A DNA stretch of 14,381 nucleotides from Acidobacteriota bacterium. Its GTDB lineage: Bacteria > Acidobacteriota > Terriglobia > Acidiferrales > UBA7541. Shown here one piece after another: positions 1,845 to 14,381 of this stretch. Every line of letters starts with the position of its first letter. Position 1 is the first letter of the stretch. The stretch is taken from positions 1 through 14,381 of the forward strand of contig QHYO01000487.1 of NCBI GenBank assembly GCA_003224135.1, in the 5' to 3' direction. The notes beneath the pieces were generated by a model. That model saw only the letters and a list, made by a program, of their open reading frames with translations, was not told the DNA's origin and did no database searches. A program made the translations under genes and the position numbers.

Positions 1845-4800
1845 ATGTACCGCTTGCTGATTGCTTCCCACTTCCACGTTGAACGGGACCGTTACCGATC
1901 CGCAAGGCGCCGTGGTCGCCGGCGCAACAGTTGTAATCACCAACACCGCAACCGGCATGATCCGGGAGGCCACCACCGGCAGTGACGGTGGCTTCGCCGT
2001 CACCGATTTGAGCCCCGGACTGTACACCGTGCGTGTCAATGCTCCAGGGTTCGCTACAAGCGAATTCAGAGAGCTTCGCCTCGAGGTAGGGCGCGCCAGC
2101 ACCTTGAACGTTTCGCTCAAGATTGTGGGAGCTGGAGAAGTCATCCAGGTGACCACGGGCGAAATAGCCGTGAACTCCACGCAATCGGAGGTGCAGGGTG
2201 TGATGGAGGCTGCAGCGATTGAGAGCCTCCCGTTGAATGGCCGGAACTTTCTCGACCTGGCGTTTCTGATTCCAGGGAACCGCCCGGCGGCACGTTTTGA
2301 CCCAACCAAGACGAACACCGTGGAAGTTTCCTCTGCGGGGGCCTTCGGACGAGGCGGCAATATTATTGTCGACGGCGCCGACAACAATGACGAAGTTGTC
2401 GGTGGAACCCTGATGAACTTCCCGCAAGACGGGCTCGCAGAGTTTCAAATCGCCGTGAACAAATATACGGCAGAAGTCGGGCGTTCCTCTTCGAGCATCA
2501 TCAACATCGCCACCAAGTCAGGGAGCAATGATGTGCACGGGTCCGAGTACATCTTCTTCCGTCACAAGGCGCTGCAGGGACTGCCGGCGACCTTCGACCG
2601 GAGATTGCCTACCCCGCGCTTTTCCCGCGAACAGTTCGGCGGCTCTTTAGGCGGCCCCTTCGTTCGCGACAAGCTTTTCGGGTTCATCTCCATGGAATAT
2701 CTCGACCACCACGAACACGGTGACGGGTGGCTCCGCGCTGGCCTTCGTGCACGATTTCCGGCTGACTTCCAAATTCGACTGGATCCCCGATGAGAAGGAC
2801 CACATCTCTCTGCGGTACTCTTTCGAACGGTCTCTGGACGTTGACAACGGCTTTTTGACGCAGCCCGCGGGGTCGGCGGCGAATCGTCAGCAGTCGCTTA
2901 ACCGTTACAACTCAGTTCTCGCGAGCTGGACGAGAAGCCTTTCCTCTAGGCAAATCAACACGGTGATCTACCAAAAGAATTATTTTCTTAACTGCATACC
3001 CGCGTTTTCCCCGAATGACCCGGTGACCAATCCGGCCGGGCTGGCGCCGGGCAATGAGGTCCGATTCCCATCTCTGCAGGACGGCGCAAATTACCGCATC
3101 CCGCAACGTACTAGGTTAGCCCGCGACCAGGTGCGGGACACCTTCTACTGGTCCTTGGGCAAGCATGGCTTGCGGTTCGGGGCTGAATACCAGTATTACG
3201 GATCCGACATACTCTTTGACCTTTTCGGCAGCGGAAGTCTTTTCATGACCGAGGACTTCCCCACTCAGAATCTCTTCACGGGCACGCCTTGTTCGACTGC
3301 CACTCCCTGCGACGACACGGACATTCCGATTGCCATAGGACTCAAGAGCGGCGCGCCTGTTCGTCCGCCTACCGGACCTTTTGTCCACAACAACTATCTG
3401 GGGTTGTTTGTGCAGGATGACTGGCGCATCAAACCCAGCCTGACACTCAACTTGGGACTTCGTTGGGATGGGGACTTCAACTCGTTGGGTGAGACCGAGC
3501 ATGACAAAGCATGTCCGTCGCTGACCGCTGCGAGCCCCAACGGCGAGTTCATTCGCAACATCCTGGGGCCGCATGATTCCTCAGCCAAATACAAGAACTT
3601 CGGCCCGCGCGTGGGTTTTGCTTGGGGCCCCTTCGGCTTGAAAAACACCGTAGTGCGCGGCGGATACGGCATTTACTACGACAGGGTGATTCTGGAACCA
3701 GCCGAGCTGGAAGAGGTACTCAATGGCCGAGTCCTGCCCATTACTGGTTTCGCGGGTTCAAGCTGCACCGCCCCAGGCGGGACAGCGAAACCGAGCCTTG
3801 GCAATTGTTCCTTGACTGGAGCGGTTTACGCTGCTGGCTCCCCTACACTTGCCAGCCCATTCTCAGGTGGCTCCAGCCCCTTCGGAATAGGAGTCAACGT
3901 AATAGACCCTAAAGCAGCCACGCCCTACGTGCAGCAGTTTACCTTAGGAGTTCAGCGTCAGTTTGGAAGGGATTATCTCTTATCGGTAGATGGACTCCAC
4001 AACTTCGGTAACCGCCAGCTTATCCCTAGGTTCCTGCGCAGCTTGCCATCGGGAGTCACCTCTCCCTTCGTGGACTGTCCCAATGGCAGAGATCCCTGCA
4101 ATATAGTGGATCCGGCAAGCGGCCAGAATGTATTGGATTGCTCCAATCCTACTGCGACACCGGTTACCCCTACTACCACGTGCCAGCAGATTACTGACTT
4201 TCAGTCCGCGGCCAGAACCTGGTACGACGCCATGCTGGTGAGTTTCCAAAAACGACCGGGAAGCGGAACGTGGCACCCGGGATTCAACATCAGCTATACC
4301 CTCTCCAAGACCTTTGACGAGCAGCAAGACGACCAGGTCAGCCCTAGCGGAGCGCCTACCGAAAACCCGGCAATCGTTGGCATGCACGTGAATGATCTAA
4401 GGATCGAAAAGGGTTATGCAGTGACCGATGAACGCCACCGTCTCGTGGTGTACGGGAGCATGGAAATCCCGTGGAAGCTAAACATCTCACCCATCTGGAC
4501 GTGGGCCTCCCACGTCCCGATGGATTCCGTAGTACCCGGGCTTGGCAGTGGGCGCCTTCCCAATATCCCGCGGAACGCTTTGGGACGGCAAATTCCCGAT
4601 GGGAAGGCGCTAAATGCCGCTGTCGCTGCCTACAACGCGCTGCCCACGTGCCTCGCCAATGGCAACACTGCCGGCCCAGTCCCCTGCAACGGGCCTGGAG
4701 ACGGGACACGGCTTGCAGTTTCATGTCCTGTCTGCAGCAGTAATCCCAAGTTTGGCGATGATTTCAACTCGATTGACATGCGATTGACGAGGACATTTCA

Positions 4801-5011
4801 CTTCACAGAACCCCATACACTGCAGTTCATTGCGGAAGTGTTCAACCTGTTCAACATCACCAACATCCGGGGCACTACCAACAGGAACTACTCCGGATTT
4901 AACAATACGATTTCCTCGCCGACTTTCAACCAGGCTCTCGACACAGCGGGGAAATTCTTTGGGTCTGGCGGGCCGCGCGCCTTTCAGTTTGCCCTACGCT
5001 ATTCCTTCTGA
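1845..5011 (+). pseudogene. TonB-dependent receptor (Oar-like, carboxypeptidase-regulatory domain), frameshifted
   Basis: An outer-membrane beta-barrel receptor of about 1,050 residues, the type Acidobacteriota carry in many copies, presumed to import large substrates such as polysaccharide breakdown products using TonB energy. Domains in order are a carboxypeptidase-regulatory Ig-like fold (about 1885-2160, 'STLNGTVTDPQGAVVAGATV'), a plug domain (about 2170-2560, 'IESLPLNGRNF', 'IIVDGADNNDE') and 'EQFGGSLGGPFVRDKLFGF'. A barrel follows from about 2740 to TGA 5009-5011, ending in 'AFQFALRYSF' with the expected terminal aromatic residue. There are two lesions. The well-placed ATG 1845 reads only 'MYRLLIAS' before the frame diverges, so most of the signal peptide is missing. 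Between about 2701 and 2730 the frame changes from 1 to 2, and some residues between plug and barrel may also be lost. Sequencing error could explain one lesion, less easily both. Confidence 0.8.
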
Positions 5012-5135: not shown

Positions 5136-5156
5136 TTGGCTGGGAGGCCTGGACTC
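5136..5156. repeat. Direct repeat within the tRNA-Gln 3' end (att-like, tRNA copy)
   Basis: Partner of the repeat at 814-834. It covers the T-loop to the encoded CCA of the tRNA-Gln gene plus one base beyond. For a minus-strand tRNA, an element inserted at this core would extend toward lower coordinates, where the second copy is found. Confidence 0.6.
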
Positions 5157-5211
5157 GAACCAGGATAGCCAGATTCAGAATCTGGAGTCCTGCCAATTGG
5201 ACGACCTCCCA
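5137..5211 (-). tRNA. tRNA-Gln (anticodon CTG)
   Basis: Read on the minus strand, the 72-nt body folds as a full cloverleaf: acceptor TGGGAGG/CCTCCCA, D-stem GTCC/GGAC, anticodon stem CCAGA/TCTGG with loop TTCTGAA, four-base variable region, and T-stem CCTGG/CCAGG with loop TTCGAGT. The discriminator is G and the CCA tail is encoded (5137-5139). Anticodon CTG reads CAG, glutamine, and the T-A first pair is typical of tRNA-Gln. All stems are intact, so the gene looks functional despite being used as an attachment site. A weak inverted repeat (TCTCT 5111-5115 with AGAGA 5131-5135) lies just downstream. Confidence 0.95.
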
Positions 5212-5699: not shown

Positions 5700-6377
5700 T
5701 CACAGTTGCGTACCGACCGGATAACTCTGCAAGATCTGAAACATAGCAACGAGACACCACACGACGCGCCAAAAAGGCAATTTGTAGTGGCGCCCCGTTG
5801 GTTCTGGCAGCAAAACCAAAAAGATAAACGGCGTTCCGTGAGCGATCAGCCAGTGGGTTGAGCGCAAAAGGGAGTCGCCGCTCAACAAGACGGCCAGAAG
5901 GATCACCGCACCAAAGGCCCCTTTTAACCACGGCACAGCAATCTTAAGCCAGGTCATCCCCCACGCATCATCGCGAGATTCCCTGGTGTAAGCTGCGGCG
6001 AGTAGTAGCGCGGTTGCGGCGAACAGGACATCTATGCTGCTGTTTGCCGTGCGAAAGACAAACGCACCAACCGAGTGGCATGGTCCGATCAGCAGGCCCT
6101 CCAACAGCATTCCAAGCGATGTGCCGTTCACCCTGACGAACAGAAAGATCAACAGTCCCGAGCCGGCTGCCGACAGTAAGAAAACAGTGAAATCGCGCAA
6201 ATAGAAGGCGTCGGAAGATCCCTTGTAAATGAGAAGAACAACAGCAAAAAAGGACAATGCCACGACGATTGCGAAATTCCGCGCCCACGCTTGATAAGCC
6301 AGCCGATGAGTCAGAACGAAGGGCAAATCACTGCTACGATCAGCGATGCATTCCAGACCACCTGCATCAACCGGCAG
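5700..6377 (-). pseudogene. Polytopic membrane protein remnant
   Basis: The open frame on the minus strand runs from just after an in-frame TAG (6378-6380) to TGA 5700-5702. The only candidate start is a TTG (6326) without a good ribosome site, and the protein-like frame already exists upstream of it ('LPVDAGGLECIADRSSDLPF'). The product has about six hydrophobic helices and ends 'ILQSYPVGTQL', resembling the 'QxYPVAGxQ' segment inside much longer hypothetical membrane proteins of this kind of bacterium. It therefore appears to lack both a proper N-terminus and the C-terminal region after that motif. No function is assigned; a glycan-related membrane role is only suggested by the neighbours. 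It could still be translated as a short protein. Confidence 0.5.
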
Positions 6378-6448: not shown

Positions 6449-7708
6449 TCAACCCGCCCGCAGTGGCTTTTCGACGCCTTTTTTTGCATTCGTCGAGTTA
6501 ATCGCAACCATTTCGCCGTGCTCCGTCAACTGAAATTCGGATTCGCCCCACGTAATTCGGTCAGAAAAAAGACTCGCCAGCCACACCACAAAATGAATTG
6601 CGTCCCTCAGCGGCACCAACCACAGCTTCCGCTGAGTCGTTTCATCTCGGATCCCCCATGCCCCAACCGTCCACGCCAGCGTCAGACGCAGCACAAGGTA
6701 CAAGCCCAAGAACGTCGCCGTTCCAGAAATCGAACGGCTCACCAGCGCTCCAGCTAGCGCCCAAGGTAATCCGTGGGTGAACAGCAATCCAACGTACGAC
6801 GCTGGGCGGCATAACCGCACAGTTCGGGCCCATCTCATCTGGTGCTCCCAAAACTTTGCGAAGGTCACGGCCGGATACATCGTCGCCACCACTTCACGCG
6901 ACACACTCACTCGCCCGCCGACTTTCGCAACTCGGTTCCCGATCTGGTAGTCGTCCGCCAACACATTCGCCAAAGCCTCATAGCCGCCGATTTTCGCGAG
7001 CCAGGTTTTCGTCGTCGCCACGGATGCGCCCAGCGCGAACGTGACACCTTCCATCCAGTCAGCTACCAGCACACCCGCCGAGAAATCCGTCGCTACGCCC
7101 AACGCTTCCATTTCCGCCCAAAAGTTGTCCTGCGTCACCCCTCTGTAAAAGCAGCTCTCGACACCCGTTTCGGAGTGTTCGAATGGCGCAGCCATCTCCC
7201 GCAGATAATTCGGCCCAACTCTCACGTCACCGTCACTCTGCACCAGCAGCTCGTACTTCGCTTCGCGCGCTAACAATGCCAGGTTGTTCACTTTCCCGTT
7301 CGAACCCAGTTGAGGCGCATTCGAAAGTAGCCGGATACTTCGTTCCGGAAACTCAGCTGTCAATTCGTGGATGAGCGGAACCGCCTCATCCTCCAAATCG
7401 TTCACGCAAAATAGAATTTCGTATTCGGGGTAGTCCTGCACGCAAAAACTTCGAAAATTCTCATAAGACGCAAAGTCCACGCCACGTACCGGCTTCAGAA
7501 CACTCACCGGCGGAGCGAACGGTCCGAGCTTTGCGCGCTTTTTCGAAAAAAATCGCACCGCCGCCAGCGCTGCAATGAGGTAATACACCAGCGGCACGCA
7601 TGCAACCACCAGCACGACCTCTCGCCAAAAATCCAGGAAGAAATGATTGTGCAGCGCCGTCAGCAGCGCCAGAAAACCTGCTTCGCGTAGGTAATTTAAG
7701 GAAACCAT
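6449..7708 (-). CDS. HpnI/GT21-like membrane glycosyltransferase (first copy, distal)
   Basis: Inverting-type GT-A glycosyltransferase of the ceramide glucosyltransferase (GT21) family, which includes HpnI of hopanoid biosynthesis; it moves a nucleotide-sugar residue onto a lipid at the cytoplasmic membrane. The 419 residues show an N-terminal membrane helix (about 29-52) and 'PVSVLKPVRG'. Catalytic motifs follow: D1 near D104 ('CVNDLED'), 'NGKVNNL' (137-143), D2 'QSDGDV' (157-162), D3 'ADDYQIG' (251-257) and the signature 'QMRW' (290-293). Two or three C-terminal membrane helices close it. All hallmark residues are present, so it should be active. ATG 7708 is 39 bp after the stop of its paralogue, with only a weak GGGA ribosome site. 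Donor and acceptor cannot be read from sequence; the neighbouring heptose genes make GDP-heptose one possible donor, but HpnI proteins use N-acetylglucosamine. Confidence 0.8.
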   Translation of the reverse strand: MVSLNYLREAGFLALLTALHNHFFLDFWREVVLVVACVPLVYYLIAALAAVRFFSKKRAKLGPFAPPVSVLKPVRGVDFASYENFRSFCVQDYPEYEILFCVNDLEDEAVPLIHELTAEFPERSIRLLSNAPQLGSNGKVNNLALLAREAKYELLVQSDGDVRVGPNYLREMAAPFEHSETGVESCFYRGVTQDNFWAEMEALGVATDFSAGVLVADWMEGVTFALGASVATTKTWLAKIGGYEALANVLADDYQIGNRVAKVGGRVSVSREVVATMYPAVTFAKFWEHQMRWARTVRLCRPASYVGLLFTHGLPWALAGALVSRSISGTATFLGLYLVLRLTLAWTVGAWGIRDETTQRKLWLVPLRDAIHFVVWLASLFSDRITWGESEFQLTEHGEMVAINSTNAKKGVEKPLRAG

Positions 7709-7747
7709 CGTCCCGTCGCCCGTTTCAGCGGCAAAAACGCACTAAAC

Positions 7748-8953
7748 TCAGCCCAGCTTTTCCCGCCCCTCTCGAAGCACGATGCGGCCGCCTCTAACCA
7801 ACTGAAACCGGCGATCGCGCCAGACAGCGCTTTTGCTCAAATAGCTGGCGCACCAAACTGCAAATCCCAGCAAATCGCGTATCGGATAGAGCCACACTTC
7901 TTTTTGTGCGCGTGGGTCGCGCACCACTCCCCAACCGATGACGCACGATTCGAGCAACCGATTGAACGTAGCCGCCAGAAACAAGATTGCGCCAAACAGC
8001 AAATGACCCGTGATCGCGCCGGCTAGAATTCCTAAAATCTCGTAAGGCATTGCAAAAATTAGGCCGGTTCCCAAATGACCCTTTGGTCGGGACCAGCGCG
8101 TCCCCTTGGCCCAACGCACTTGCCTTTCCCACATGCGCCGGAAGGTCATTGGCGGAACAACATGATCGATGACATGCCGCGAAAGCAAAACCCGATATCC
8201 CGCCTTGTGAATAAAATTGCCGGTAACGAAATCGTTGGAAAAATATTCGCCGGTTACCCAGTACCCTCCGATTTTTGCGATGGAGTCTTTCCGCGTTACG
8301 ATCGTTGGCCCGAGTCCAAATTTTATTCCTTCCAACAGATTGGCGGTAAGGACTCCCGCTGTCATCTCTACTGACATGCCAATCGCATCCATCCCTGACC
8401 AGAATCCACCTGCATTCTTCCCGCGGTAAATGCATGTCACCATGCCCACTGCCGGATCGAGCATCGGCGCGACCACCTCTCGCAGATAATTCGGCGCCAC
8501 TTCTACATCGCTATCGCTCGTTACCAGGATGTCGTAGGACGCAACCTCGCTCAAGCGGCTAAACGAATACGCCGGTGGATTGGGCAGTTCCGGCTGGCCT
8601 GTAACCAAAATCGAGCATTTGATATGCGGGTAACGCGAAGCCACTTCCCGGATGACTTCCAGCGCCGCGTCGCTCTCCTCATCCGCCGCAAAAAGTATTT
8701 CGTAATCCGGATAATCCTGGCGAAAAAAGCTCTCGATGTTCTCTCTTAACCGTACTTCCGCGCCGTGAACAGGCTTCAAAAGTGAAACCGGCGGCTGGCG
8801 GTCGTTTTGTTTCGCGAATCGTCGCTGCTCTTCACTCTCACGATGAAACTTTGCCGCCCCAACGAGCGCGAGAACCAGGAAGCTGCAAGAAGAAAGAACG
8901 CCCACGCATGCAACCACCAGCAGTGCAAACCCGATGATATTGATCACTGTCAT
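7748..8953 (-). CDS. HpnI/GT21-like membrane glycosyltransferase (second copy)
   Basis: A paralogue of the adjacent gene, 401 residues with the same layout: N-terminal membrane helix (about 5-33), 'PPVSLLKPVHGAEV', D1 'FAADEESD' (D91), D2 'TSDSDV' (145-150), D3 'FSNDFVTG' (238-245) and 'RQVRW' (277-281), then C-terminal membrane helices. It differs at two points. Where the neighbour has the usual 'NGKVNNL', this one reads 'NPPAYSFSRL' without the lysine, and D3 is 'SND' instead of 'ADD'. This suggests a different substrate or a changed role, possibly as a partner subunit. ATG 8953 follows the TGA of the HAD gene with no gap and has GAGGGG about five bases upstream, so translation is probably coupled. 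Confidence 0.78.
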   Translation of the reverse strand: MTVINIIGFALLVVACVGVLSSCSFLVLALVGAAKFHRESEEQRRFAKQNDRQPPVSLLKPVHGAEVRLRENIESFFRQDYPDYEILFAADEESDAALEVIREVASRYPHIKCSILVTGQPELPNPPAYSFSRLSEVASYDILVTSDSDVEVAPNYLREVVAPMLDPAVGMVTCIYRGKNAGGFWSGMDAIGMSVEMTAGVLTANLLEGIKFGLGPTIVTRKDSIAKIGGYWVTGEYFSNDFVTGNFIHKAGYRVLLSRHVIDHVVPPMTFRRMWERQVRWAKGTRWSRPKGHLGTGLIFAMPYEILGILAGAITGHLLFGAILFLAATFNRLLESCVIGWGVVRDPRAQKEVWLYPIRDLLGFAVWCASYLSKSAVWRDRRFQLVRGGRIVLREGREKLG

Positions 8954-9718
8954 TCAGCCCCTCGGCTGAGGGGCACTGGCACGTGGCGCCGCCTGCTGCG
9001 ATTCGGTAGCACCAACAAGATCTTTGAAGTGGCGCGTTGCGTCGTCAGGAAAGTCCGAAATCAGATCGTTGGCGCCTGCTTCGGCGAGCTCGAACAATCG
9101 CGCTGAAGGTGCATACCCTGCGCATCTCATCCCCGCCGCTCGCGCTGCCAGGACGCCCGCCACTGAGTCTTCCACCACGACGCACTGCCTGGCCTTTACG
9201 CCCATTCTTACCGCCGCGAGTAGAAAAATATCCGGTGCTGGCTTTGGAGCACCAGGCTCTTCGCCGGTAACAATCACGGAAAAATGTTTCGTAATTCCAA
9301 AGTGCTCGAGCGATTCATGCGCCCGGACGCGCCCAGCGGAAGTTGCAAGCGCACACAGGATTCCGTCCGCATTCAATTGCGAAAGGACTCTCAGAATTCC
9401 AGGTTTTGCATGCAACTTATTTCTGGCGATCGCATACAAATCATCCTTGCGTCGGCCCAATCTTTCCATTTCCGAAAGCTCAATCGAACCAAGGTAGTGC
9501 CGCAGAATCTCTCGCCGCGGATGCCCCGCATACAGGAAATCCAGATTGAGACTCGCTGAATCAATCCCTTGTTCGACGAGCAGCGTTTTCCACGCGGCCT
9601 CATGAATGGGATGGCTGTCGGCCACCACGCCATCCAGGTCAAAAATGACCGCTTCGAGCGTGGCACCGTGAATGGAGCTTCCTGCTGAGTTTAGTTGAAC
9701 CTCGTGGCTATTCGGCAT
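8954..9718 (-). CDS. HAD-superfamily phosphatase, beta-phosphoglucomutase type
   Basis: A cytoplasmic HAD hydrolase of 254 residues with all four motifs: I 'FDLDGVVADS' (nucleophile D27, acid D29), II 'ATSAG' (T126/S127), III K159 in 'GAPKPAPDIF' and IV 'VVEDSVAG' (E183, D184). The helical cap between motifs I and II marks subfamily I (PGM/Gph-like). Family members act on sugar phosphates as mutases or phosphatases. The position directly after gmhA (11-bp overlap, ATG inside the gmhA end) in a set with hddA and hddC suggests it removes the 7-phosphate from heptose 1,7-bisphosphate, a step normally done by GmhB, which belongs to a different HAD subfamily. That role is inferred from context only. 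The 22-residue leader before the first strand is uncertain; a later start is possible. Confidence 0.75.
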   Translation of the reverse strand: MPNSHEVQLNSAGSSIHGATLEAVIFDLDGVVADSHPIHEAAWKTLLVEQGIDSASLNLDFLYAGHPRREILRHYLGSIELSEMERLGRRKDDLYAIARNKLHAKPGILRVLSQLNADGILCALATSAGRVRAHESLEHFGITKHFSVIVTGEEPGAPKPAPDIFLLAAVRMGVKARQCVVVEDSVAGVLAARAAGMRCAGYAPSARLFELAEAGANDLISDFPDDATRHFKDLVGATESQQAAPRASAPQPRG

Positions 9719-10319
9719 TGTTAAGCATCATGCGCTGGCGAATCGCCAGAAAGATGGCATGCGTGGCGCAAAGATGTGCATCTTCGATGTGTTGCATGCT
9801 GTCAGATGGCACGATGAGGCACAAATCGGCAAGCGTTTTAGCGCGGCCACCCGCAAATCCAGTGAGAACCAGCGTTTGCACTCCCAATCGCCGCCCTGCT
9901 TCCAATCCTCGAATGACATTCGGCGAATTTCCACTCCCCGAAATTGCCAGCGCAATATCGCCTTTTTCGGCAAGACTCTCCAGTTGCTCGGAAAAAATCT
10001 CTTCGTAAGCTTTGTCGTTTGCCCAGGCCGTAATCAACGCGACGTTGTCCGTCAGCGCGATCGTCTTCAAACGCTTCGCGCGTCCTGCGACTGTTCCCTT
10101 CCCGATATCACATGCGAAGTGTGAAGCCAGCGCCGCGCTACCTCCGTTACCGAATACGAACAGCGTCCGGCCCTCCTCATACCCGCGCCAGATCACATCG
10201 ATCACACCGTCCACGACCTGGTGATCGAGATGCGCCAGGACGTCCTGCACAGCCAAAAGATAGTCTTTGGCCGCAAGGGACGGCGCAGCTGCGATGGCGG
10301 TTGTCTTTACATTTTTCAC
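9708..10319 (-). CDS. gmhA: Sedoheptulose-7-phosphate isomerase (GmhA-like SIS protein)
   Basis: A cytoplasmic SIS-domain isomerase of 203 residues, predicted to convert sedoheptulose 7-phosphate to D-glycero-D-manno-heptose 7-phosphate, the first step of ADP- and GDP-heptose synthesis. The sugar-phosphate loop 'FGNGGSAALASHF' (56-68), the 'ISGSGNS' loop (126-132) and the C-terminal 'QHIEDAH' (176-182) with the conserved His are present. The catalytic Glu of E. coli GmhA (second Glu of 'HFAEEL') aligns with Asp71 in 'HFACDI', a conservative but unusual change. DiaA-type SIS proteins are related, but kinase and nucleotidyltransferase neighbours favour GmhA. The start is GTG 10319, about 25 bp downstream of a predicted transcription start; no better ATG is available. 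Confidence 0.82.
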   Translation of the reverse strand: MKNVKTTAIAAAPSLAAKDYLLAVQDVLAHLDHQVVDGVIDVIWRGYEEGRTLFVFGNGGSAALASHFACDIGKGTVAGRAKRLKTIALTDNVALITAWANDKAYEEIFSEQLESLAEKGDIALAISGSGNSPNVIRGLEAGRRLGVQTLVLTGFAGGRAKTLADLCLIVPSDSMQHIEDAHLCATHAIFLAIRQRMMLNNAE

Positions 10320-10351
10320 AGGAAATCCCAGCGAACGAGCTGACTTAATCG

Positions 10352-10380
10352 ATTATATACTGGCCCTGCCGACCTCACAA
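10352..10380 (-). promoter_or_regulatory. Sigma-70-type promoter upstream of gmhA
   Basis: On the minus strand TTGTGA (10375-10380; 4 of 6 consensus bases) and TATAAT (10352-10357; perfect) are separated by 17 bp. Initiation would fall near 10345 and give a leader of about 26 nt before GTG 10319. It occupies the only large gap (88 bp) in the cluster. It would let gmhA, the HAD gene and both GT21 genes be transcribed apart from hddC-hddA, or be boosted relative to them. Confidence 0.6.
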
Positions 10381-10407
10381 CGCGGCGCGAATCGCGTTTC
10401 GTTGCAG

Positions 10408-11376
10408 TTATCGGGGAGGCCCACCCGTTTGGCCGACCAGTTGCCCATTCTGCCCGTCATTATGTAGCACCTGTGAGCCTTCTGTCGTCAGCGCAAAAGG
10501 CATCTCCCGCAGCGCCACGAGCGCCGCTCGCACCTGCTGCTGCTTCTCCGGACGACAGCTCAACAATAAAAATCCGCCGGCTCCCGCTCCAAGGAGCTTG
10601 CCGCCCGCCGCTCCCGCCTCACGAGCAAGACGATAATTCGATTCCACCACGTCGTTCGTGATACCGCTCGCAAGTCCACGCTTAAGCTGCCATCCCTGGT
10701 CGAGGATCGCCAATTCAACCATCTGTCCTACCCTGCGAAATTTCTCTTCGTCCGCCATATTGCGCGCCTGCTCCGTCAAAATCGAAGCCGCGGGCCTTTC
10801 CTGGCCGATATAAAAAAGCATCAGCCGTCCAGAAAGTTCTTCCCGAGTTTTTTCAGAACATTTCACAGCATGCACGTCCACGCCTCCGTCCGGCTGAAAT
10901 CGAATGAAGTTCAATCCGCCGTACGCCGCGGCAAATTGGTCTTGTTTACCAATGGGCGCGGCAACTCGCTCAAGCTCAATCTCGCATGCTGCCGTCGCCA
11001 GCTCGTGTGCGCTGGGACTTCTGCCGGTCCTCACATAGAGCGCATGCAAGAGCCCAACTGTAAATGCGCTGCTCGAGCCCATGCCGGTGCCCGCGGGCAC
11101 ATCCGCGAAGCTGGCGATCTCCATGCCGCGCTCGATGCCCACAAGATTCAGGCACTCTCGTACCAGGGGATGCTCAATTTCCGAAACGCTTGAGACGTCC
11201 TCCGTGCGCGAATACTTGATTCGAATCTTGTCGTGAAAATATGGATGTAGCGCGATGTACATCGCCTTGTCGATCGTGGAGCTGAGCACAGCTCCGCCGC
11301 TTCGGCGGTAATACTCAGGCAGGTCGCTGCCGCCACCAGCAAAGCTCACCCGAAATGAAGTTTTCGTCAGTATCAT
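10408..11376 (-). CDS. hddA: D-glycero-D-manno-heptose 7-phosphate kinase (HddA-like GHMP kinase)
   Basis: A GHMP-family sugar kinase of 322 residues, predicted to phosphorylate C1 of heptose 7-phosphate to alpha-heptose 1,7-bisphosphate in the GDP-heptose branch. The N-terminus 'TSFRVSFAGGGSDLPEYY' (6-23) is the substrate-side motif of the HddA/FGGY-unrelated kinase group. 'PAGTGMGSSSAF' (94-105) is the GHMP phosphate-binding loop, 'GKQDQ' (143-147) carries the catalytic Asp, and 'GGKLLGAGAGGFL' (258-270) is motif 3. Length fits the family. ATG 11376 overlaps the hddC stop by four bases (ATGA), so translation is coupled. The last 20 or so residues are polar and family-atypical. Fucokinase-like or galactokinase-like activity is an alternative, made less likely by the gmhA and hddC neighbours. 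Confidence 0.82.
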   Translation of the reverse strand: MILTKTSFRVSFAGGGSDLPEYYRRSGGAVLSSTIDKAMYIALHPYFHDKIRIKYSRTEDVSSVSEIEHPLVRECLNLVGIERGMEIASFADVPAGTGMGSSSAFTVGLLHALYVRTGRSPSAHELATAACEIELERVAAPIGKQDQFAAAYGGLNFIRFQPDGGVDVHAVKCSEKTREELSGRLMLFYIGQERPAASILTEQARNMADEEKFRRVGQMVELAILDQGWQLKRGLASGITNDVVESNYRLAREAGAAGGKLLGAGAGGFLLLSCRPEKQQQVRAALVALREMPFALTTEGSQVLHNDGQNGQLVGQTGGPPR

Positions 11377-12116
11377 GCAAGTTTTTCTTCGAGTGCAGCC
11401 AATCCGGTTGGGCTACCCATGTCATAAAAGGGTTCTGTCGTCACCCACGCTCGCATCTCGCCTTGCGCAATTAGTTGCGGATAAATCTCCTCTTCCAGTG
11501 AACATTTCCGCTCTGCAGGAAGCCGCGCGAGAATCTTTTTCTTCAGTACGATCACGCCCGCATCAATGTGGCTTAGCCCTTCAGAATTTCGTTTGCGGTA
11601 CGCAGTCACCACTCCGTCCTGGCTCACACCTAAATTGGCGGGCAGCAGGCTCGCCGGAACCTCCTGCGAAGCCGTTTCCGGCTTCCCATAAGCCACAATC
11701 AGCGCCGTGCAATCCGCTTCCTGAAAATCTTGCAGCAACGCAGCGTAATCAATCGCAATATACGTATCGCCATTCACGAGCACAAAATAATCTCGTAGCT
11801 GCGCTTCTGCATTCTTCAAGGCTCCCCCGGTGCCTAAGGGAGACGGTTCAAATGAGTATGAAATGCGGCAACCAAATTTGTCGCCGTCACCAAAGTATTG
11901 CTGAATCTGGTCGCCTAAATAAGCCACGAGCAGCAGCGCACGCCCAATTCCGCCGTGAGTCAGCAATTCCAACTGGTGTTGCAAGAAAGGTTTCCCTCTA
12001 ACCGCTATCATCGGTTTAGGAATCGTTTCCGTAATTGGACGCATCCGCGTGCCCAGCCCACCAGCGAGAATCACGGCTTGCGTGCCGGACTGCCGGCTTC
12101 TCATCGCTGAATTCAT
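11373..12116 (-). CDS. hddC: Heptose 1-phosphate guanylyltransferase (HddC-like nucleotidyltransferase)
   Basis: A nucleotidyltransferase of the glucose-1-phosphate thymidylyltransferase fold, 247 residues, predicted to join D-glycero-alpha-D-manno-heptose 1-phosphate to GTP, giving GDP-heptose. Visible are the nucleotide loop 'AGGLGTRMRPITETIPKPM' (18-36) with Arg24 and Lys34, 'PLGTGGAL' (93-100), and the metal-binding Asp in 'VNGDTY' (114-119), with 'DAGVIVLKK' and 'FYDMGSP' later. The nucleotide and sugar preference cannot be read from motifs; GTP and heptose are inferred from the adjacent hddA and gmhA. A dTTP- or CTP-using enzyme remains possible. ATG 12116 overlaps the upstream glycosyltransferase stop by four bases; Met5 is an alternative start. 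Confidence 0.8.
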   Translation of the reverse strand: MNSAMRSRQSGTQAVILAGGLGTRMRPITETIPKPMIAVRGKPFLQHQLELLTHGGIGRALLLVAYLGDQIQQYFGDGDKFGCRISYSFEPSPLGTGGALKNAEAQLRDYFVLVNGDTYIAIDYAALLQDFQEADCTALIVAYGKPETASQEVPASLLPANLGVSQDGVVTAYRKRNSEGLSHIDAGVIVLKKKILARLPAERKCSLEEEIYPQLIAQGEMRAWVTTEPFYDMGSPTGLAALEEKLA

Positions 12117-13990
12117 TTCTTCGCCAAAAACCGATTCGCGATGGCTGCATTTATCGAGGAGGTGTCCTCGCTGCTCCGCAGCGGCTGCTGTGCTGGCCGG
12201 TTGCTGTAAGCAGCTTTACCGCCGCTTTCCGCAATCAAGTATCTTCCACCTGCAGGCAGCCATTTCTCCGCGTCGGACCGCTTCTCCGATGGCACAAAAA
12301 GGAAAACCCGCTGCGCTCCCTGCCAGATCGGCAAAAATTCTTCATCCTTACAGAAAATCGGCGGCGCGTCAGGATACTGCGAACCCGGCAGCAAATTGTT
12401 GTATCTTCCATTCCAGATCAGCAGCCTGCGTCCCGTGTAGAATCCCACACTCGAACTCGCGTCAAACTCGCCGTAAATCGCCAGCACATCCTCGCCCTTG
12501 ATTTGCACGCGTACTTTTTCCACCAGTGACTTTGACGAAAGGTACGGCCCAAACACGCCCAAGGCAATGTTCGCCGCAAAAAAGAACAATGCCATCGTCG
12601 CCGCCATCGTCAACGTCGCCGCAATTGCTCTATTTCTGCGCCGCAGCCACCACGACAAACCCAGGCCCACCAAAAACGCCACCGCCGCCATTGCCGCCGG
12701 CAGTCGCAGCACTGCGAACGCTTGTGGCGTCAAATCCAAAAAATGCGCCATGGAAACCCGGTAGACATCCTGCTCTTGCCGTTCGAGCAGCGACGATATA
12801 TCTCCGTGCACCTCGACCTTCGCGGAGATCACCAGCATCGTGATCAGCACCCCCGCCAGCAAAACCCCCACCGCCGCCAAAGCTGCTTGAATGTACTTGA
12901 TCCACCTCAGGCCTTCTTCTTCCGCGCGCGCCAATCCAATTCCCAGCAGCATCGCGATCGCCGGCCATGCGCCGAAACTGTAATACTCCATCCGCGAACC
13001 GAACGTCAGCGAGAAAAACAGAAGAATGAATCCGCCCCACAACGCAAGCAAAAGCTTCACCTGTTGTGGCGCCTCCAGATTTTTCCACGTCCGTACGGGC
13101 GGAAACCCTTTGCACACGGCCATCAGAAAAATACTCCACGGGAATAACCAGATCAGGTGTGCGCCCAGCCACAACCACAGCGGGACAGCCTCATAGTCCG
13201 GAGGAAACCGTGTTCCTACTGCTCGCTTGAAGTGCTCATTGATGAAGTACGACCAGAAAAACGTTTTCGCGCGCAAGCTCGCCAGCAGGTGCCACGGCGT
13301 CGCCACAACAAGAAAAATCAGCGTGCTCGATACCAGGTGCATCTCGCCCAGCCGCTTCCATGCTCTCGTCGCAATCACAAACAGCACAATGATCCCGACT
13401 GGAAAAATCACGCCTACCAACCCTCGCGTAAGCATCGCCAGCGCGGACATCACTGCCGCGCCCCAATACGCTATCCGCGGCGGCAACGATCCGGTCCATC
13501 CGCGAAGGAAGAAATAAAAGACCGCCGTAAACTCCAGCGCGTAAATTCCTTCCGGAATCATGATTCGCGTGAATAGAAAAAATCCCGCGCCGGTCAACAC
13601 CGCCAGCGCGCTGTACAACCCTGCCCGCACGCCAAAAAATCGCCGTGCAAATTCATTCACCAGCAGCGCCAGCCCGATCATCGCCAGCGCCACCGGCAGC
13701 CGCGTCGCGAATTCGTTCACGCCCAGCACAGCGTAGCTAGCCGCGACTGCCCAATAATGCAGCGGTGCCTTCATCAGGTACCGAATCCCGTTCATGTAAA
13801 GGATCACCCAGTCGTGCCGCTGCAAGATCTCGCGCGCCACCACTGCATGCGACGCATCCGCATCGTCCAACAAACCGGGAAATCCCGCATTGCCGAGGTA
13901 AATCACGCAGCCAAAGAACAGCGCGATCAGCGCCCCGGCTTTCCGGGTCAGCCAACCTGCTTGCTCTTCTGCTTTTATAGTGGAATTCAT
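12113..13990 (-). CDS. GT39/ArnT-like polyprenyl-phosphate-sugar glycosyltransferase
   Basis: A polytopic inner-membrane protein of 625 residues with about twelve hydrophobic helices and a soluble C-terminal part of roughly 140 residues, the layout of ArnT/PMT-type (GT39/GT83) enzymes. These transfer a sugar from an undecaprenyl-phosphate carrier to lipid A, a glycan or protein on the periplasmic face. The first loop holds the acidic pair D42-D43 in 'GLLDDADASHAVVAREIL' and 'YLMKAPLHYW', matching ArnT's Asp motif and 'KPPLxYW'. Later 'TRGLVGVIFP' and 'TPWHLL' also fit. I chose ATG 13990; the frame is open to a TTG at 14029, but that would overlap the upstream gene. The transporter before it resembles ArnE/ArnF, which supply ArnT. 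The sugar and acceptor are unknown. Confidence 0.8.
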   Translation of the reverse strand: MNSTIKAEEQAGWLTRKAGALIALFFGCVIYLGNAGFPGLLDDADASHAVVAREILQRHDWVILYMNGIRYLMKAPLHYWAVAASYAVLGVNEFATRLPVALAMIGLALLVNEFARRFFGVRAGLYSALAVLTGAGFFLFTRIMIPEGIYALEFTAVFYFFLRGWTGSLPPRIAYWGAAVMSALAMLTRGLVGVIFPVGIIVLFVIATRAWKRLGEMHLVSSTLIFLVVATPWHLLASLRAKTFFWSYFINEHFKRAVGTRFPPDYEAVPLWLWLGAHLIWLFPWSIFLMAVCKGFPPVRTWKNLEAPQQVKLLLALWGGFILLFFSLTFGSRMEYYSFGAWPAIAMLLGIGLARAEEEGLRWIKYIQAALAAVGVLLAGVLITMLVISAKVEVHGDISSLLERQEQDVYRVSMAHFLDLTPQAFAVLRLPAAMAAVAFLVGLGLSWWLRRRNRAIAATLTMAATMALFFFAANIALGVFGPYLSSKSLVEKVRVQIKGEDVLAIYGEFDASSSVGFYTGRRLLIWNGRYNNLLPGSQYPDAPPIFCKDEEFLPIWQGAQRVFLFVPSEKRSDAEKWLPAGGRYLIAESGGKAAYSNRPAQQPLRSSEDTSSINAAIANRFLAKK

Positions 13991-14015
13991 CAACAGGAAG
14001 TTCGAAACATCCGTT

Positions 14016-14381
14016 TCAACCAATCGCAACCAGGGCGACTCCTGCGCAAACCAGGATTACTCCAGCCCAGCGCGCCGCGTTCACTTCTTCTTTCAAAATA
14101 TATTTCGCGCCCAGCGTCCCCACCACGTAACTCAACGCCGAGGCCGGAATCACGAAGCTGATCGGTTGCCACGACAACAGCACCAGCAGCGCATAAAACG
14201 ATGCCGCCATCAGCGGAATCGCCACCCAGAACCACCCATTGCACACCGCGCGCCCCAGAAAAATTAGCAACGCCTTTGGCCGTAGCCGCGCCGGCTCGCC
14301 CGTCGCCTTCATCCCATAGGTCATCGCAATTTCGCCGCCCGTGCTTCCGCAGATCAGCACCGCCAGCAATAAAATTGTGCC
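14016..14381 (-). CDS. ArnE/EmrE-like small transporter of the DMT superfamily (5' end outside window)
   Basis: At least 121 residues; the frame is open through the window end. Four hydrophobic helices are visible, with 'GEIAMTYGMKATG' near the start, like the helix-1 Glu motif of SMR proteins, and a last half 'FVIPASALSYVVGTLGAKYI' followed by 'WAGVILVCAGVALVAIG'. Half-size DMT proteins include SMR multidrug exporters and ArnE/ArnF, which flip undecaprenyl-phosphate-aminoarabinose. The order here, directly before an ArnT-like enzyme with a 25-bp gap, favours a lipid-linked sugar flippase. Such flippases often work as heterodimers, so a partner gene may lie just outside the window. Drug export cannot be excluded. 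Confidence 0.65.
   Translation of the reverse strand, partial: GTILLLAVLICGSTGGEIAMTYGMKATGEPARLRPKALLIFLGRAVCNGWFWVAIPLMAASFYALLVLLSWQPISFVIPASALSYVVGTLGAKYILKEEVNAARWAGVILVCAGVALVAIG

Follow-up and report, generated by a model that had tools for sequence, protein, structure and literature searches.

A putative GDP-heptose cassette in a probable hopanoid-type glycosyltransferase locus of an Acidobacteriota bacterium

Hopanoids are cholesterol-like bacterial lipids that serve as molecular fossils; from their head groups, the presence of particular bacteria is deduced. In the best-matching described route, as given in PMC12583986, HpnI attaches N-acetylglucosamine (GlcNAc) to bacteriohopanetetrol, the sugar is deacetylated by HpnK, and HpnJ makes the cyclitol ether. 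According to PMC5462960, subdivision 1 and 3 Acidobacteria carry HpnI and HpnJ and no HpnK and were inferred to be unable to make the cyclitol ether, so that a role for both genes is left open. We describe here a cluster of eight genes on an Acidobacteriota contig (QHYO01000487.1), in which two HpnI-like GT21 glycosyltransferases, GT21a and GT21b, are encoded together with putative enzymes of GDP-heptose synthesis, an ArnT-like GT39 glycosyltransferase and an ArnE-like transporter. The window, as we call the stretch analysed, is the whole contig (G000:C483, 14,381 bp), and belongs to an assembly of 4.5 Mb in 804 contigs that is 85% complete. Our comparisons give an even chance to the explanation that GT21a transfers heptose, or a heptose-derived sugar, to a hopanoid.

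The locus resembles the HpnI-HpnK-HpnJ route in that GT21b exceeds the HpnI cut-off and that HpnJ is found by the transporter pair in relatives and also in the window's own genome. It differs from that route in having no HpnK over cut-off in its own genome, a second, divergent GT21, and a DMT-type transporter pair, GT39 and the heptose cassette in the same locus; the HpnJ-GT21 linkage expected of a cyclitol ether locus is seen in relatives and is inferred for the window, since its own HpnJ is on another contig. With the GDP-heptose pathway, as presented in PMC10680097, the locus shares homologues of GmhA, HddA and HddC in one operon-like run, but it has a HAD phosphatase of the beta-phosphoglucomutase type in place of GmhB and lies in a hopanoid-type, not a capsule, setting. 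Finally, the ArnT-like GT39 and the ArnE-like transporter pair (the pair being seen in relatives) recall the Arn system for lipid A, yet their scores are far under the cut-offs (ArnT 86 vs 567 bits; ArnE 24 vs 92), no other Arn enzyme was found among the scanned window proteins, and the neighbours are hopanoid genes.

Gene content and probable hopanoid setting

Open reading frame (ORF) calls, together with Pfam and NCBIfam scans, found all eight genes on the minus strand. They are listed here in their reading order, with one promoter-like site.

14016..14381, minus: DMT2, a small ArnE-like transporter, incomplete at the contig end (84% over 119 aa to DMT2 of the relative L160)
12113..14029, minus: GT39/PMT_2, ArnT-like membrane glycosyltransferase, start uncertain (PF13231, 3e-13)
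11373..12116, minus: HddC-like sugar-1-phosphate nucleotidyltransferase (best solved structures 5xhw and 6jq8)
10408..11376, minus: HddA-like heptose-7-phosphate 1-kinase, a GHMP kinase (NCBIfam HddA, 118 bits; 3k85)
10352..10380, minus: promoter-like site ahead of GmhA (TTGTGA-17-TATAAT, 10/12 consensus bases)
9708..10319, minus: GmhA-like sedoheptulose-7-phosphate isomerase, GTG start (TIGR00441, 116 bits)
8954..9718, minus: HAD phosphatase, beta-phosphoglucomutase type, candidate GmhB replacement (TIGR02009, 131 bits)
7748..8953, minus: GT21a, HpnI paralogue, proposed heptosyltransferase (TIGR03472, 292 bits)
6449..7708, minus: GT21b, HpnI family glycosyltransferase (TIGR03472, 336 bits)

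The genes are closely packed, with 4-bp overlaps between GT39 and HddC (12113-12116) and between HddC and HddA (11373-11376), an 11-bp overlap between GmhA and HAD (9708-9718), a zero-gap junction between HAD and GT21a (8954/8953), and gaps of 39 bp between GT21a and GT21b and 88 bp between HddA and GmhA (10320-10407). GT39 may start at TTG 14029, which gives a 14-bp overlap with the ArnE-like gene, or at ATG 13990. The original prediction, made from the sequence alone, had described eight minus-strand genes with these junctions, and the ORF calls bore it out, except that its eighth gene, for the ArnE-like transporter, is broken off by the contig end. It had also placed a promoter in the 88-bp gap. 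The gap is there and contains a promoter-like site, but the scanned region holds 2 such sites against 3.7 +/- 1.6 in shuffled sequence; with no excess over shuffles, the promoter is plausible by its position only.

Comparison with relatives suggests what lies to the right of the window. The cut transporter matches DMT2 of L160 far better than it matches DMT1 of the same locus (33%), and DMT1, which precedes DMT2 and comes after HpnJ in relatives from the loci L150-L165 and L178-L191, lies off the window contig. We fetched 17 HpnJ loci, chosen for HpnJ or GT21 (L153, L160-L165, L178-L186, L190; two fetches of the genome G252 count as one). The order HpnJ-DMT1-DMT2 was present in 15/15 of those whose contig continues, L178 and L190 ending there, and TolC precedes HpnJ in all 16 that reach that far, L162 being too short. 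TolC and MacB, frequently joined by HlyD and TPR genes, stand upstream of HpnJ, and the DMT pair stands downstream; the known hopanoid transporter HpnN was over cut-off in 0/38 genomes searched. Possibly, the genes beside HpnJ form a hopanoid export system. A second, diverged DMT1-DMT2 pair was observed beside GT21 genes in L162 (10605-14247, G214) and L191 (8162-10360, G200).

The window's own genome encodes an HpnJ of 698 bits (721 bits in L160; cut-off 577.6), whose gene breaks off at the left end of contig C106. Behind it are a multicopper-oxidase-like ORF (L178, G000:C106, 2582-3730), a pyridoxal phosphate (PLP) decarboxylase, TolC and MacB, of which the last three accompany HpnJ in relatives also. 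The reading direction of this HpnJ fits a place just right of the window, with DMT1 in the gap, and we infer that C106 adjoins the window. The same genome also encodes squalene-hopene cyclase (Shc; 763 bits, cut-off 431) and HpnH (550 bits, cut-off 225). Among 101 genomes, including this one, HpnJ was over cut-off in 73, the cyclase in 76 and HpnK in 2; the best HpnK match of the window's genome (141.5 bits) falls below the cut-off of 232.6. Because HpnJ lies upstream in relatives and the genome has its own HpnJ, Shc and HpnH, the cluster is very probably the downstream half of an HpnJ/HpnI-type hopanoid head-group locus.

These results bear on other proposals of the original prediction. The gene content supports its view that a heptose cassette is combined with ArnT-like GT39, ArnE-like transporter and HpnI-like GT21 genes, and the HpnJ context makes a hopanoid a more likely target than the lipopolysaccharide (LPS) core. 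Its argument against the LPS core, namely the lack of a WaaC/WaaF-type heptosyltransferase, does not hold as made, in that the absence applies to this one contig: elsewhere in the genome, on contig C352, lie both of its GT9 matches together with a GmhB-type gene, and the cluster has no GT9 match. These C352 genes look like the ordinary LPS heptose genes, and with them together there we reject an LPS inner core function for the present locus. As for lipid A, no enzyme was found among the scanned proteins save the weak Arn-like matches, in scans that included no search aimed at lpx genes.

The putative heptose cassette and its linkage to GT21a

The cassette, HddC-HddA-GmhA-HAD, sits between GT39 and GT21a, and the linkage of GmhA, HddA and HddC was confirmed by their ORF positions. 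The best solved-structure match of HddA is the heptose kinase 3k85 (E 9e-37), those of GmhA are phosphoheptose isomerases (1tk9 and others), and those of the HddC-like protein, 5xhw and 6jq8, represent a 6-deoxy-D-mannoheptose pathway protein, HddC. To judge from these homologies, the product of the cassette is probably GDP-heptose. Recycling of N-acetylmuramic acid, suggested by a MurU score of 125 bits, was dropped on finding the HddC-like protein paired with a GHMP kinase and GmhA. It was also observed that the site aligned with the GmhA catalytic Glu, which we take to be Glu65, is Asp in 75/82 GmhA-like rows from HddA loci, the window included; this Asp may mark a GmhA type that goes with HddA. 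A second HddC-HddA pair is present in the genome (L189, G000:C582, 6297-7472), with its HddA broken by the contig end.

No GmhB match was found in the window. The HAD gene itself is of the beta-phosphoglucomutase type (TIGR02009 cut-off 153) and is not GmhB. Among the longer regions fetched, it was present in 6/6 counted cassettes that lack GmhB (window, L150, L219, L221, L222, L223) and in 0/11 that have it (L151, L152, L154, L155, L225, L230-L235), which makes it a good candidate, on this pattern of occurrence, to replace GmhB. Nine other HddA regions were left uncounted (L189, L220, L224, L226-L229, L238, L239); none has HAD, three of them (L224, L238, L239) have weaker GmhA-GmhB matches, and the other six have neither HAD nor GmhB. 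The available part of PMC10680097 yielded no precedent for such a HAD in the heptose pathway, and reports that Campylobacter draws on the GmhB encoded in its LPS cluster; by analogy, the GmhB-type gene beside the GT9 enzymes on C352 could serve the cassette.

We examined GT21 ORFs with >330 aligned residues in L120-L191, of which there were 66, 48 of them distinct, and built a tree of 48 rows in which the two window rows were swapped for two labelled ones. GT21b, which exceeds the HpnI cut-off (310 bits), groups with the GT21 of HpnJ loci, whereas GT21a does not reach it and is therefore named an HpnI paralogue. GT21a falls in a clade of 7 members with 100/100 support, and the cassette lies within 7 kb of it in 6 of the 7 assessable cases. 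Outside these 7 are the copies of G252 and G295, which start at a contig end; in G252, an HddA fragment was found at the end of its HpnJ contig. By comparison, HddA, HddC or GmhA matches occurred in 0/14 fetched GT21 loci (5 to 20 kb) outside the clade (L156-L158, L160-L165, L181, L182, L185, L186, L191). The locus L219 (G236:C46, 4872-12545) was reached through HddA and kept out of this count; it reads GmhA, sugar transferase, HddA, HddC, HAD and then a GT21 about 1.6 kb past the HAD, with GT39 genes on the other strand. At E 1e-110, GT21a was detected in 8/89 genomes of the family.

In G218 and G219 the order is MacB TolC PLPdc HpnJ DMT1 DMT2 [GT39 on the opposite strand] HddA HddC GmhA GmhB transaldolase ... 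SDR GT21a GT21b. G232 and G233 have the cassette with GT21a on one contig, and HpnJ DMT DMT, a DPM-like GT2, GT39 and GT21b on another. In all 4 of these genomes GT21a is within 7 kb of HddA-HddC-GmhA plus a transaldolase homologue and a GmhB-type domain, the latter forming one protein with GmhA in G232 and G233. In the copy scanned, that of G218, the transaldolase scored 346 bits against a cut-off of 282, and the GmhB-type protein passed the histidinol-phosphatase domain cut-off (133 vs 84) and not the GmhB models. The presence of a GmhB-type phosphatase and a transaldolase in one cassette lineage supports the heptose reading. G240 has HddC HddA TlpA-like GmhA HAD GT21a, and G203 and G208 have HpnJ DMT DMT with GT39 (67% and 74% to the window) and GT21s and no cassette. 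Since GT39 and the DMT pair occur in HpnJ loci without a cassette, both appear to belong to the HpnJ locus, the cassette being its variable part; GT39 as a heptose-specific enzyme is disfavoured by the same observation. It should be noted that the original prediction had proposed conservation of the eight-gene order as a check, and an order unique to this contig as a ground for refusing it. No relative that we fetched shows the exact order, and half of that objection stands; the arrangement that comes back is HpnJ-DMT1-DMT2-(GT39)-GT21(-GT21), and next to a single GT21 clade there are heptose cassettes that differ in descent.

The different descent was apparent in a tree of HddA, for which 92 of 130 distinct rows were used, 38 public-genome rows (every second one) being dropped. 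HddA of the window and G240 fell in an 18-row set of mixed phyla (support 96/90) that includes Bacillota, Bacteroidota, Melainabacteria and three other Acidobacteriota rows, while HddA of the four GmhB-type cassettes fell in a 22-row set from genomes of the same phylum only (100/98). By this split, the single GT21 clade is accompanied by two or more cassettes of separate descent. Metagenome protein lists, taken as the best 120 for each protein and giving 75 distinct longest-contig sizes for GT21a and 82 for HddA, had 11 sizes of at least 3 kb in common; with sizes jittered by 5% in 2000 trials, the mean number shared was 0.36 and the maximum 3. This suggests, short of proof, that equal sizes reflect homologues of GT21a and HddA on the same contig. 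The few named close homologues of the two proteins include Candidatus Acidoferrum, and one GT21a homologue is labelled Dormibacteraeota. When the 7 GT21a rows were compared with 21 GT21b-type rows, 10 positions were fixed in GT21a and nearly fixed otherwise in GT21b, including an Asn for Asp beside another Asp that is presumably catalytic; the choice of sugar donor is unreadable from these positions.

Competing explanations

The explanation that we prefer is that an HpnJ/HpnI-type hopanoid head-group locus took in a GDP-heptose cassette. GT21a would glycosylate bacteriohopanetetrol or a related hopanoid with heptose or a heptose-derived sugar, and the head group on which GT21b and HpnJ act would be the same one or a parallel one. 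The DMT pair would carry the product over the inner membrane, on whose far side GT39 may attach a sugar carried by a lipid. Heptose, a sugar without an N-acetyl group, would need no HpnK, a point that would apply only to the genomes with GT21a. Taken separately, the use of GDP-heptose by GT21a is a proposition that we favour slightly, and a hopanoid acceptor is one that we regard as evenly balanced. What the data show directly are the gene content and order, the phylogeny, the cassette-GT21a linkage and the HpnJ, Shc and HpnH genes; all enzyme activities, the donor and the acceptor are predictions.

Several observations weigh against this explanation. All three cassette enzymes score under their NCBIfam cut-offs (GmhA 116/209 bits, HddA 118/600, HddC 115/300), as does GT21a, and the HddC-like protein scores higher as a mannose-1-phosphate guanylyltransferase (148 bits) and as MurU than as HddC. 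The window HddA lacks 17 residues (in frame, 51 bp) that are kept in 7/7 aligned relatives, one of which is otherwise 98% identical to it; either the loss is real and the activity doubtful, or the assembly is wrong. G202 has DMT-DMT-GT39-GT21a-GT21b in an HpnJ locus with nothing in between and no cassette, and its genome (94% complete) gave no HddA match at E 1e-25. In G240 (65% complete), which has cassette and GT21a, there was neither a match for Shc nor an HpnH over cut-off, and in G232 and G233 the cassette and GT21a are away from the HpnJ contig. HpnK-family matches at E 0.001 occurred in 72/101 genomes, many near full length and under cut-off, so that the absence of HpnK rests on a threshold. 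HddA-GmhA-HddC modules are, moreover, common away from GT21, and the genomes compared are related, so that our counts are not independent trials.

The commonness of such modules speaks for a different explanation, in which the cassette serves an exopolysaccharide, O-antigen or glycoprotein and lies in the hopanoid locus by chance, GT21a and GT21b using ordinary sugars such as GlcNAc on hopanoids. Among the 80 public HddA loci listed (3 to 21 kb), an HddC match was found in 52, GmhA in 51 and HAD in 1, and GT21, GT39 and DMT in 0/80. Related cassettes with the same HAD also occur in polysaccharide-like clusters of G231, G232, G236 and G252 (L219 and L221-L223, so judged by one sugar transferase, in L219, and by ORF starts), and G202 combines GT21a with no detected HddA. 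Yet the recurrence of the cassette near GT21a in two HddA lineages, the overlapping genes and zero gap leading into GT21a in the window, and the contig sizes shared in metagenomes all argue for more than coincidence, and we consider a chance placement unlikely, though it is the strongest competitor to hopanoid heptosylation.

We think it distinctly improbable that the cluster works in the manner of the Arn system, with GT21a making a lipid-carrier-linked heptose that the DMT pair flips and GT39 transfers, on the outside, to a hopanoid, lipid or protein. In the window, the cassette does directly follow DMT2 and GT39, and lipid-linked sugars are plausible in such loci given the DPM-like GT2 that separates the DMT pair from GT39 in G232 and G233; however, the GT39 orthologues of G203 and G208 are in HpnJ loci without a cassette, GT39 is on the opposite strand in G218 and G219, and GT21a belongs with HpnI and ceramide glucosyltransferase. 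That last affinity (the best solved structure for GT21a is a ceramide glucosyltransferase, E 1e-27, and many metagenome copies are automatically so named) could point to ceramides or other lipids as acceptors instead of hopanoids, but with HpnJ in the relatives' loci, GT21b over the HpnI cut-off, and Shc and HpnH in the genome, this is very unlikely.

Other features and significance

The remainder of the window contains a tRNA-Gln (CTG) at 5137-5211 on the minus strand, which was the sole match of an Rfam scan, and, after GT21b, an ORF of 208 aa (5700-6326) without counterpart in Pfam or NCBIfam; in the mapped loci, tblastn matched it on its own contig only. Two plus-strand ORFs, 1861-2793 and 2720-5011, overlap in different frames and look like one carboxypeptidase-regulatory/TonB-type receptor, its family judged by eye, that is broken by a frameshift.

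We found no report of heptosylated hopanoids in the open-licence literature, as searched by titles and the beginnings of abstracts, and no description there of this gene combination, most subscription papers falling outside that scope. Within the literature so covered, the cluster is a variant of the hopanoid head-group locus with an apparently undescribed gene combination. More tentatively, and with somewhat less assurance than we attach to hopanoid heptosylation by GT21a as such, uncultured Acidobacteriota near Candidatus Acidoferrum may possess a class of heptosylated hopanoids, made by an HpnI paralogue with a GDP-heptose donor, with cassettes recruited from two sources and with HpnJ remodelling an HpnK-independent head group. 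If so, a heptose-using HpnI paralogue would offer, for some of these relatives, a testable answer to the question of what HpnI and HpnJ do; it would also make a new composite hopanoid worth searching for and extend the acceptors of GDP-heptose by a new kind. Two further gene functions become testable, that of HAD in place of GmhB and that of MacB/TolC and the DMT pair beside HpnJ in genomes where HpnN was not found.

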